Assembly: GCA_017601145.1 (NCBI GenBank)
Contig: JAFNIV010000011.1
Location: 1 to 47,806, forward strand
DNA: 47,806 nt
From: Candidatus Brockarchaeota archaeon
Lineage (GTDB): Archaea; Thermoproteota; EX4484-205; JAAOZO01
Direction of reading: 5' to 3'
Shown here in pieces: positions 1 through 47,806 of the stretch. Both the position numbers and the translations under genes were made by a program. How positions within the stretch are numbered: position 1 is the stretch's first letter; every line of letters starts with the position of its first letter. The notes beneath the pieces are model-generated. The model did not search any database, was not told the origin of the DNA, and worked only from the letters and a program-made list of their open reading frames with translations.

Positions 1-204
1 ATTGTCTGCTTGGCTGGAAGGGCTGGCAGACCTAGTAGGCATGGGACAGGCCGAAAGAGACGCCTGCTGAGGGCAAGACCTCCGTAACCCACCTTCCACA
101 CGGGTTCCTCAAAACGGCCTCACTTGCCGCCGCCTGTAGGTGAGTGGAGATCGAGTCTGTCCGTGGAAGCAGGAAGCTCCTTGCGATAGCGAGGGGTAGT
201 TCAC
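1..204 (+). ncRNA. Structured RNA with omegaRNA-like (IS200/IS605 right-end) 3' end
   Basis: This G+C-rich block stands out from the A+T-rich surroundings and has no sustained reading frame. Its 3' end is an 8-bp hairpin (177-184 with 189-196, GATA loop) followed by TAGTTCAC (197-204). With the preceding GCAGGAAGCTCC this matches my recollection of the right end of archaeal tnpB elements, where the omegaRNA scaffold ends just before its guide. Other helices visible are 93-99 with 163-169 and 121-128 with 139-146. A second copy starts at 47724. If the omegaRNA reading is right, the guide would begin at 205. No TnpB C-terminal motif is encoded here. I considered RNase P and SRP RNA and saw none of their conserved cores. 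Being an RNA is fairly secure; the family is inference. Confidence 0.5.
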
Positions 205-22240: not shown

Positions 22241-22768
22241 TCTTACGCCATTTATCTTGATGTATTCTTCAAGCCAATTTCTTAAAGTTTATTACTTCCT
22301 AAACTTTTTATAATACTTATCACGAATTGACCATGTTACTTCGGCTTTAATTTGTTGTGCAAATTGTAGTGATAAGTAGAACTAAAGGATCCCATTCAAA
22401 ATTCATTATAATAATAAGGAATTTGCTTTTCTTCATAAAATCTAATAATCATTTCCTTATTTTTTAGCATTTATTAAGCAACTCATATAGGGCATTAAAA
22501 GCTAAGTAATCTGACTTTCTTGCGTTATTGTAAAGTCGTAACTCAAGCATTAGCGATATTCAAGTCAACGCAAAGCTTTAGGAAGAACACTAGCTTTTCT
22601 AAGAATTGAAAACCTAAATATTATTCTTTTTGAGTGATATGCCTTCTATCTCTAGTTTAACTGTAGAGTTTAAAGAATGATACCAAATAATATATTTCAT
22701 TCAAATGAAGCTATTTTGTCTAACTTTTGAACTTTACAAACGTTGTAATTTATCTTAGATTTTAAAAC

Positions 22769-22865
22769 GGGCCCGAGGGGATTCTCAACCAATACATTCA
22801 ATATTTGAACCCCTGATGTGCAGCTTAGGAGGCTGCCGCCTTAATCCATACTAGGCCACGGGCCC
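22769..22865 (-). tRNA. tRNA-Arg (anticodon CCU) with a 22-nt T-loop intron
   Basis: Acceptor GGGCCCG/CGGGCCC, D-arm with GCCT/AGGC, and anticodon stem GCAGC/GCTGC around CTCCTAA (anticodon CCT). The T-stem AGGGG/CCCCT encloses 29 nt instead of 7. Removing 22785-22806 restores TTC-GAAT, a normal T-loop; other cut registers are possible. The discriminator is at 22768 and CCA is not encoded. The insertion site matches that of tRNA-Trp at 41615-41633. Confidence 0.92.
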
Positions 22866-23266
22866 ACTTTTTTCTTTTTAGTTGGCTTTTTATTTCTTAC
22901 TCTTTACATAGAGTTATAAATTTAATTTAACATAGTTTACCTTTGTCTAATGTTTAATGGCTCTTTACTATTGGTTAAGAAACGAAAAATTAAAACTGCT
23001 CATTCTTCTCTTAAGCTTACCAAATAAAGATTCCTTAATAGGAACATAGTTCCTCTGACTTCTCGTTTTTTAGAAAATTCGTATTTTTATCTTCTTTAGG
23101 AACAGAATTCTAAAGAAAAGATTCTATAATTGTCGAGTAAAATTATTCGCTTGCTAATAAACAATTACCTCAAAAGTTATTTTAGTTCAAGTATAAACTT
23201 TAGGTCTTAAGTTAAGATTCTCTAAAGCTTTATTAACTATTGGTATAAATAGTTCTGCCATTTCTT
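22866..23266. other. Intergenic region without visible genes
   Basis: A+T-rich sequence between tRNA-Arg and the GfcR-like gene. I see no coding frame of note. It contains the promoter of the downstream gene near its right end. Confidence 0.5.
23242..23252 (+). promoter_or_regulatory. TATA box of the GfcR-like gene
   Basis: GGTATAAATAG lies about 20 nt before the ATG at 23267, so the mRNA is predicted to be leaderless or nearly so. Confidence 0.6.
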
Positions 23267-33990: not shown

Positions 33991-34094
33991 GGGCTGGTAG
34001 CTCAGAGTTAAAACGCGAGCAAACTGGGAGAGCGCTCGGCTGAAGAGGATCTTTTAGGAACCGAGTTGTCGTCGGTTCAAATCCGACCCAGCCC
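33991..34094 (+). tRNA. tRNA-Phe (anticodon GAA) with two introns
   Basis: Acceptor GGGCTGG/CCAGCCC, T-arm GTCGG-TTCAAAT-CCGAC, and anticodon stem CTCGG/CCGAG. Removing 34006-34023 (18 nt) restores the D-loop as GCTCAG-CTGGGAGAGC. Removing 34046-34059 (14 nt) at the canonical 37/38 site restores the CTGAAGA loop. The D-loop cut could shift by one base. The discriminator A is at 34095 and CCA is not encoded. Confidence 0.93.
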
Positions 34095-34393
34095 ACGCTC
34101 AGTGCCAATTATGAAAATATACTTTTACCACTGTTATAAATCCTCGAATATTATAACAAAATAGTAAAACTTACAAAGAATGTTTTTAATAAATTGTTCT
34201 TTTAATAGCTTCTTATAACTGAAAGGTATCTTTTTATAGAGAAATTAAGCTTTTTGGCAGAATTTACATAGTTTTAAAGTTGTAATTTTGAAACTTCTAC
34301 TGGGTTTTTTTTACATTTTGTTCACTTGTACAAAAACGAAAAAATAAACCTTTATAATAACTCTTTCTTAAGGTAAAGAGTGCGAAGAGGATT

Positions 34394-47043: not shown

Positions 47044-47409
47044 TTATAAAAGAAGAGGTAGTATAAATTGTGAGAAAAATGCTAACAATAAAGCACCAAA
47101 TATAAGCTCCTTTCCTAGGTACTTATTTATTTTAGTAACATATAGTATAATTCCAACTATCCCTAATGGCGCGTATAATGCGTTAGTAACATCAAGAGCA
47201 GTTTTTAGAACTTTTCGTGCAAAATAAATCGTTGTTTGTTCAACTATATTTAATATGTTGTCTATGATGTTAGTAAACTTGTTTGTTTGATCGGTAAAAT
47301 TATAGTATGGTTCTCCAAGAGAAATACTAGCTACTTCGCATAACACAAAGCACAACAGTAAAATAGCTAGAATCATCCTTTTATTAACCAGAATAATGTC
47401 GCTTTTCAT
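47044..47409 (-). CDS. Small membrane protein of unknown function
   Basis: A 121-residue protein: N-terminal hydrophobic signal or anchor (about 12-32, MILAILLLCFVLCEVASISLG), a polar extracellular-looking stretch with one NFT sequon, then two hydrophobic segments (about 79-93 and 101-121) at the C-terminus. I do not recognise it. The frame is intact and placed shortly upstream of enolase on the same strand. Confidence 0.6.
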   Translation of the reverse strand: MKSDIILVNKRMILAILLLCFVLCEVASISLGEPYYNFTDQTNKFTNIIDNILNIVEQTTIYFARKVLKTALDVTNALYAPLGIVGIILYVTKINKYLGKELIFGALLLAFFSQFILPLLL

Positions 47410-47648
47410 TTTTGTTAATCTGTTTATTTTAGGAAGTGTACTAGCTTTATAATCTCCAACATTTTTGATATTTAGATCAAAAGAGCATTAATTTTTACAT
47501 AGTGTTTTCTTTTTGTTATATTTCTTATTTTTAACACAAAATTTAACTTAAAAAAGATTTTATGGCTAAGTTCGTTATTAAGAAATACATTTTTTACACA
47601 TGTTAAAAGTTGTGTTAATAAAGAATCTCATGCAAAACTTTTTAACTT
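47410..47648. other. A+T-rich intergenic region
   Basis: No coding frame is supportable. A TATA-like GTGTTAATAAAG at about 47611-47622 would place a start near the G+C-rich block that begins at 47649. Confidence 0.4.
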
Positions 47649-47692
47649 TGATGGCGGGAAGTCCCCCTGCGAAAGCTGAGGGATGAAAGCCG
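47649..47692 (+). ncRNA. Possible small structured RNA
   Basis: A short G+C-rich island (TTGATGGCGGG ... GATGAAAGCC) in very A+T-rich DNA, preceded at the right distance by a TATA-like element. It contains TGA-GGGA-TGA, the spacing of archaeal K-loops bound by L7Ae, and a GGGA/TCCC-type hairpin. It does not fit a full C/D or H/ACA consensus. It may be a guide-like RNA or upstream part of the next locus. Confidence 0.25.
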
Positions 47693-47696
47693 AAAA

Positions 47697-47708
47697 GCTT
47701 ATATTTTT
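47697..47708 (+). promoter_or_regulatory. TATA-like promoter for the right-edge RNA
   Basis: GCTTATATTTTT is centred about 23-26 nt before 47724-47728. That is where sequence shared with the left-edge RNA begins, which supports an independent promoter for this RNA copy. Confidence 0.5.
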
Positions 47709-47723
47709 CTCATTATATCTATC

Positions 47724-47806
47724 ATTGTCTGCTTGGCTGGCAGACCTAGTAGGCATGGGACAGGCCGAAAGAGACGCCTGCTGAGGGCAAGACCTCCGTA
47801 ACCCAC
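47724..47806 (+). ncRNA. Second copy of the left-edge structured RNA, cut by the window end
   Basis: 83 nt match positions 1-92 except that 9 nt (AAGGGCTGG, 18-26 of the first copy) are absent. The last 66 or more nt are identical. Upstream sequence is A+T-rich and non-coding, with a TATA box, so no tnpB gene precedes it here. The 3' end with the hairpin and guide lies outside the window. Confidence 0.5.

Follow-up and report, generated by a model that had tools for sequence, protein, structure and literature searches.

A protein-free IS200/IS605 element of Brockarchaeota that probably carries a promoter and a stand-alone, trans-acting omegaRNA

The guides of TnpB are usually regarded as by-products of tnpB mRNA. 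The right edge of contig JAFNIV010000011.1 from a Candidatus Brockarchaeota archaeon (the window, by which we mean the whole 47,806-nucleotide stretch that was analysed) raises the question of whether such an RNA can stand apart from tnpB under a promoter of its own, and what it would do there. The original prediction described a tnpB-free, omegaRNA-like RNA behind a TATA-like box, and proposed either a trans-acting guide for a TnpB encoded elsewhere or a domesticated RNA.

The TATA-like box does lie at the expected distance, with CTTATAT at 47698-47704 about 23-26 nt 5' of the repeat start at 47724. The DNA upstream had been taken as only A+T-rich and non-coding; this stands insofar as there is no tnpB frame, the open reading frame at 47044-47409 being on the opposite strand and ending 230 nt away, but not for the last ~50 nt, which hold a transposon left end (47641-47697). 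The feature therefore starts at 47641 and not at 47697. It opens with TTTAAC (47641-47646, + strand), composed of the target motif TTTAA, a candidate TAM, and the element's own first base; in the plasmid pair pARN4/pARN3 (see below) the element lies exactly 3' of TTTTAA. The IS200/IS605 left end follows (47647-47697, +), with hairpin GTCCCCC..GAGGGAT and ATGAAAGCCGAAAAG in the layout of the tnpA+tnpB element L059 (see below); altogether 47641-47697 reads TTTAAC plus TTTGATGGCGGGAAGTCCCCC(TGCGAAAGCT)GAGGGATGAAAGCCGAAAAG, and every complete copy has it. A putative archaeal BRE/TATA-like promoter, CCGAAAAGCTTATAT (47690-47704, +), fits the consensus and is present in all complete copies but a 245-bp subtype. 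The promoter placed upstream of the RNA is thus retained as a promoter-like box that appears to belong to the transposon left end. A-rich and TATA stretches like this box also precede tRNA genes of the draft genome.

The 5' part of the putative stand-alone omegaRNA occupies 47724-47806 (+), where it is ended by the contig end. It includes a leader hairpin GTCTGC..GCAGAC (47727-47745, +), seen in the sequence and in the fold of a sister copy, and 47735-47806 is identical to window positions 21-92. The left-edge copy (1-204, +) runs from the leader to the right end, with the element's left end lying beyond the contig, and terminates in a hairpin plus TAGTTCAC, the right-end layout recognised at the outset. 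The edge copies are distinct from one another, since the left has 9 nt more in its leader, and both are incomplete, the contig ends falling inside the repeat.

Comparison of window 1-204 with the draft genome (G000; 1.62 Mb, 55 contigs) gave 40 matches of 90-100% identity, far more than chance would produce, and this 1.6-Mb Brockarchaeota-like draft holds about 30 or more copies of the element. Many of the matches lie at contig ends, so the repeat probably breaks the assembly. Copies and their flanks, aligned from selected stretches of the genome, define a discrete element of ~285 bp, mostly 278-299 bp counted from TTTAAC, with shorter forms of 245 bp (the subtype) and 226 bp (one hybrid). The order within a copy is hairpin GTCCCCC(TGCGAAAGCT)GGGGGAT, BRE/TATA-like GAAAGCCGAAAAGCTTATAT, leader hairpin, RNA body and right end, the last consisting of GAAGCAGGAAGC, a hairpin and TAGTTCAC. 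Beyond these limits the flanks vary from copy to copy, except for L007 and L025, whose left flanks agree and which may represent a single site that was assembled twice. Among L003, L004, L012, L019, L021, L022 and L025 the loop of the left-end hairpin reads either TGCGAAAGCT or, reverse-complemented, AGCTTTCGCA, which looks like an inversion of the hairpin.

A single Y1 transposase gene (PF01797) is present in the draft genome, inside L059 beside a tnpB; this is the genome's only tnpA+tnpB element, and the repeat matches it at the left end as well as at the right. In a congener (G001) the site of copy L012 is present without the element. TTTAAC stands 5' of 21/21 complete copies, and the readable guides, i.e. 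the right flanks after TTCAC, are all distinct (26/26). Insertion is 3' of a short target, with a clean empty site and no target duplication. Because of the L059 ends, the empty site, the constancy of TTTAAC and the differing guides, the repeat is, as judged from its sequence, a recently mobile, non-autonomous IS200/IS605 element. A TnpB encoded elsewhere, as had been proposed, is found in L059 together with the Y1 TnpA, and there are ~27 TnpB C-terminal matches in the draft genome.

The alternative proposal of a domesticated RNA fared less well, and a single domesticated RNA was ruled out by copy number and unique flanks, which are those of a mobile multi-copy element. A domesticated TnpB guide RNA that regulates host genes, as with TldR guides, would suit a relative in Brockarchaeota GD2_1 (L038/L133) that is single-copy and has degenerate ends and a promoter-like box. 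For the window it is disfavoured to the point that we give it almost no credence: the genome has about 30 recent copies, their guides are flanks, and no second targets were found. When each of the 26 guides, headed by TTTAAC, was searched against its own genome, the matches at E <0.05 were own flanks or contig-end duplicates.

The 245-bp subtype (L019, L021, L022) is without promoter and leader (GAAAAGTGCCTACTACCTAGTAGGCATGGG) and occurs at three different sites. This promoter-less subtype has been mobile too, which makes the promoter dispensable for movement, and it provides a natural promoter-less control. At L010:2360-2507, 130 bp downstream of a MITE copy, a tnpB 3' end has decayed and carries a diverged canonical omegaRNA. 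In L033 (C5:4449-4533) a TnpB from a different family comes with nearly this right end (36 nt, 94%), so an end recognised by one TnpA is common to several TnpB families.

Plasmids of Sulfolobus islandicus offer a direct view of an occupied and an empty site. pARN4 carries a 321-bp family member, and its near-twin pARN3 has the exact empty site, TTTTAA, with GGAGGTTTTAA running directly into TGAAGTTAAGAACCC; here the two plasmids differ by the single insertion. The pARN4 guide starts TGAAGTTAAGAACCC and therefore matches pARN3 beside TTTAA, a natural TAM plus target. The two plasmids constitute a natural plus/minus pair for the proposed RNA-guided homing. pHVE14 has another copy of the element, with a different guide.

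Housekeeping RNAs (RNase P, SRP and others) were ruled out as the identity of the RNA. As the prediction required, Rfam 15 gave no match at gathering score to these or to any other RNA family; the best over the RNA was HgcC (24 bits, cut-off 50), with sot0042 also sub-threshold, and neither is taken as a match; tRNAs were all that Rfam recognised otherwise. Rfam has no family for the element RNA. A sub-threshold HgcC match at L177:1491-1623 (-), of 24 bits, is strongest at the right-end hairpin; the HgcC RNAs of other archaea may themselves be stand-alone RNAs of the IS605 type.

A comparison set came from tnpB-linked RNAs. In the phylum, the pattern GCCTGNNGAG...AAG...GAAGCAGGAAG was found about 70 times where tnpB elements end at their 3' side, spread over 27 of the 300 genomes searched, whereas a reversed control pattern gave no matches in the same 300. 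Alignment A1 comprises 31 omegaRNAs, all from other genomes. Most of them sit where a tnpB frame, or what can still be recognised of one, has its 3' end; L117 and two cases at contig edges show no tnpB. The structure of A1 comprises stem 1, stem 2 (CCUG:CAGG), stem 3a and a right-end hairpin, plus a pseudoknot in which the loop of stem 1 pairs with UUC or CUC of the GUUCAC/GCUCAC end, with 90.7% paired cells and double changes in 19/28 pairs. None of 500 shuffles reached this, and slid controls were 34-52% paired. The positions coincide with the numbering of the ISDra2 omegaRNA (reRNA), in which cryo-EM shows -35..-32 pairing with -84..-81, flanked by -36G and -31A, and -5..-3 in a pseudoknot (PMC10097598).

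Model R1, built from A1 and containing no sequence of the window's genome, matches all copies whose right end is complete, covering model positions 1-116 (about 60 bits, E about 4e-12), the left-edge copy at 34-204 over 1-116 of 116 with 60.3 bits and E 4.5e-12. With filters off the R1 search divided this long match, the copies probably exceeding the model's length window. Reciprocally, model R2 (described below) finds the genome's tnpB-linked omegaRNAs. Because a model from tnpB-linked RNAs of other genomes matches the copies end to end, we take the RNA to be an omegaRNA scaffold in which ~80 additional nt occupy the place of stem 3b, in agreement with the tnpB-free, omegaRNA-like RNA first proposed.

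In the left-edge copy (all features on the + strand), stem 1 (GGC..GCC, 38-52) bears the pseudoknot strand GGA (44-46) in its loop and covaries in both the tnpB-linked and the tnpB-free set. The 5' strand of stem 2 (CCUG within GCCUG, 62-66), invariant in tnpB-linked omegaRNAs, has its partner CAGG at 170-173, within GAAGCAGGAAG (166-176; stem 2 3' strand plus flanks), which is invariant in all 31. Compensatory changes are seen in both strands of stem 3a (GGGC-A-AGAC, 71-79, and GUCUGUCC, 155-162), for the 5' strand relative to L038 and others. Between them, at the stem 3b position, lies the extra apical domain (80-154). Stem 4, the right-end hairpin (177-196), is common to the tnpA+tnpB element and covaries. 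GUUCAC (199-204) contains the 3' strand of the pseudoknot (UUC, 200-202) and the right cleavage site, and shows A:U/G:C covariation with the stem-1 loop. The flank outside the right end, TTAACTACAAAGCTTAAAAA (205-224), is by position the putative guide.

Stems 1, 2, 3a and the right-end hairpin thus occur in the order of an omegaRNA, and the pseudoknot involves the last scaffold nucleotides, stem-1 loops GGA/GAA/GGG/GAG pairing with UUC/CUC of GUUCAC/GCUCAC. One omegaRNA trait is missing, origin in the 3' portion of tnpB mRNA: no tnpB is found upstream of the right-edge copy or within about 1 kb of 32 loci from relatives, and we therefore call the RNA an omegaRNA variant. Its folding energy is weak (z -1.6 and -0.75), so the structure rests on covariation. 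Among the copies the omegaRNA core is less variable than the apical region (1/67 versus 10/78 variable columns, p = 0.011).

Two hybrids (L111 in C37, L112 in C43), which lack tnpB, fuse the 5' half of the MITE, at GCCTGCTGAG, to a short omegaRNA core of the tnpB type. By itself the 5' half gave a marginal 7 bits in an HMM search. A 28-nt 5'-half motif, designed from the element and its diverged relative L038, was found at three places in 85k genomes: at tnpB 3' ends in an Aquificota MAG and an Undinarchaeales MAG, and at the tnpB-free Brockarchaeota GD2_1 locus (L133), which is identical to L038 of G007, a genome that shares the window genome's order. This places the window genome near Brockarchaeota.

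The element RNA resembles that of ISDra2 (PMC10097598, PMC8612924) in stem 1, pseudoknot, stem 2 numbering, stem 3a, hairpin 4 and right-flank guide, but has no overlap with tnpB, a promoter-like box of its own directly upstream, and a conserved apical domain of ~80 nt at stem 3b, which in ISDra2 is disordered and dispensable (PMC10097598).

To survey relatives we used R2, made from the window-type RNA and L038. With no more than six candidates scored in each genome, so that counts are lower bounds, it gave matches at E <= 1e-12 in at least 16 of the 398 genomes searched from the phylum, many of them multicopy; the matches in three of the 16 (G090, G197, G281) are short and look tnpB-linked in kind. 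Relatives are spread over many hot-spring archaea, Sulfolobus islandicus plasmids and Acidianus tailed spindle virus. The loci that we read comprise 30 from other genomes plus pARN4 and the virus, and tblastn with 12 TnpBs over about 1 kb around these 32 found no TnpB homology. Nearly all have the left end and a TATA-like stretch, with TATA-like boxes 5' of the RNA in most. The window element gave no match in plasmid and phage collections, and two scans of viral contigs gave nothing. In Acidianus tailed spindle virus (KU645528.1, 17236-17565; L179) the element overlaps the hypothetical gene ATSV_D57 on the opposite strand. MITE-SMN2 of virus SMV1 (HG322870), a Sulfolobales-virus MITE without inverted repeats, was considered as a family member and rejected as a different element, with no significant match to R1 or R2; about 48 nt near one of its ends resemble a stretch of the region of that viral element.

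Alignment A4, of 36 tnpB-free RNAs, has 96.5% paired cells over the full structure and double changes in 23/37 pairs, with 0/500 shuffles reaching this and slid controls at 32-48%. A4 was fitted to the nested helices of R2 and its apical helices were predicted on A4 itself, so the shuffles are not independent there; the independent evidence is the slid control and the pseudoknot, which lies outside the model to which A4 was fitted. In the pseudoknot 28/36 have an A in the loop with a U on the guide side and 7/36 G with C, the sole exception (L199) having a decayed end. The apical domain reads CCUCCGUAACC...CUUCCACACGG...CCUCCGCUGUGGGUGA...GGGAUCGAG across families, contains covarying helices (A4 numbering 56-59/122-126, 62-67/113-118 and 89-93/102-106), is about as conserved across families as the core, and does not occur in the 31 tnpB-linked omegaRNAs.

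These patterns bear on two other readings. One is a passive internal-deletion MITE, mobilised by TnpA, with the RNA-like interior a right-end leftover and no use of the guide. Elements of two ends only are known (PATE, PMC7290912), and promoter-less copies have moved, as this would have it. TnpA, however, is expected to need end hairpins only. Compensatory changes across families have nonetheless kept the pseudoknot, stem 1, stem 3a and the apical domain, which lie far from the ends, and the pseudoknot partner switches with GTTCAC/GCTCAC with no matching change beside the right-end hairpin; we regard the passive MITE as unlikely. The other gives the apical domain a separate function, for example in TnpA regulation or with a host or viral protein as target, and leaves the omegaRNA parts vestigial. 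Conservation of the domain about like the core, and its presence in a virus and plasmids, would fit; but vestigial helices would not be 96-98% paired each with double changes in every one, as the omegaRNA helices in A4 are, and this we hold to be improbable.

A trans-acting omegaRNA would need TnpB from elsewhere, and TnpB, common in archaea, is encoded in 11/12 host genomes with the RNA, with several TnpB families per genome. The TnpB-less host (G035) has one decayed RNA copy. In the genome's own TnpB the catalytic D, E and D are retained but the zinc ribbon has been lost; the AlphaFold model of this protein was poor (pLDDT 64) and was set aside. A TnpB clade comprising L059:766-1890 (P0001), L066-L068, L076, L081 and L093 is without the CxxC zinc ribbon and keeps the third RuvC aspartate (RDW/RDY). 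In L067 and L078 a small ORF lies upstream of tnpB, in tnpA's place in some tnpB elements, and by eye resembles a ribbon-helix-helix protein. Bound TnpB need not be guided: the RNA could be a decoy or inhibitor that binds or titrates TnpB and dampens cutting by autonomous elements, and the apical domain, an addition absent from tnpB-linked omegaRNAs, would be in keeping with that. A decoy would hardly be expected to keep the guide-proximal pseudoknot and right cleavage end intact, nor to bear in every copy an own-site guide with the proper target motif, and we rate it as very improbable.

The reading we prefer, and think likely, is that of a protein-free IS200/IS605 MITE that carries a promoter and a trans-acting omegaRNA, and would borrow TnpA for movement and TnpB for retention or homing. 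From the ends, empty sites, lack of tnpB, omegaRNA architecture with its covariation, promoter-like box, unique guides and one TAM plus target, all of them features of sequence, we infer transcription, TnpB loading, cleavage, homing and an apical role for the MITE RNA as follows. A Y1 TnpA encoded elsewhere would move the MITE to a position 3' of TTTAA, and the left-end archaeal promoter, predicted from consensus, would transcribe a complete omegaRNA consisting of stem 1, pseudoknot, stem 2, stem 3a and right-end hairpin, followed by 16-20 nt of flank as guide. TnpB from other elements may bind this RNA in trans; so loaded, it would cut the empty TTTAA-plus-guide site, whether vacated by excision or carried by an allelic chromosome or plasmid, and repair of the cut site would copy the MITE back in. 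The apical domain is possibly a module that contacts TnpB or stabilises the RNA. The retention logic, in which TnpB cuts empty sites and repair restores the element, was put forward for TnpB elements in PMC8612924, and PMC11870625 tested it in the form of a plasmid gene drive.

We are evenly divided on a wider version, that such parasitic MITEs act phylum-wide as an RNA-only gene drive, in which a promoter-driven guide hijacks TnpB in trans and homes between plasmids, viruses and chromosomes while the added domain aids competition for TnpB. If the preferred reading is true, TnpB works in trans and can be exploited by non-autonomous elements, giving a reason for the persistence of archaeal MITEs such as SMN1. 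The apical domain would be an unstudied RNA module that may alter TnpB loading or guide stability and could be of use for compact editors.

Known already, in outline, are stand-alone OMEGA RNAs of IscB and PATEs, and also the MITE SMN1. Altae-Tran et al. reportedly described in 2021 stand-alone trans-acting omegaRNAs of IscB, from OMEGA guide loci without a nuclease gene. Those are bacterial; the element RNA is TnpB-type, archaeal and part of a mobile element that has ends of its own. PATEs, e.g. of Halanaerobium (PMC7290912), are likewise gene-less IS605 ends moved in trans, but the PATE of that paper is a single copy with a piece of tnpB, and a stand-alone RNA, promoter and cross-species conservation are not described there. 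SMN1 is, according to PMC3718332 (citing Berkner and Lipps 2007), a 320-bp non-autonomous element of Sulfolobus islandicus mobilised by ISC1733, and the paper gives its mobilisation as observed. Like our family it is protein-free with transposase in trans, and the pARN4 member (321 bp versus 320 bp) may correspond to SMN1 of S. islandicus REN1H1, to judge by size and host. The window element, of ~285 bp and from a distant lineage, is by size and layout the Brockarchaeal counterpart of SMN1. In the literature searched we found no paper describing SMN1 as omegaRNA-encoding, and within the searchable literature, which covers few subscription papers, neither an archaeal MITE with a promoter-driven TnpB omegaRNA nor the conserved apical domain was reported.

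Two tRNA genes of the window are probably intron-containing, one of 105 nt (33991-34095) called by Rfam and not by ARAGORN, and a tRNA-Arg of 100 nt (22767-22866) called by ARAGORN only.
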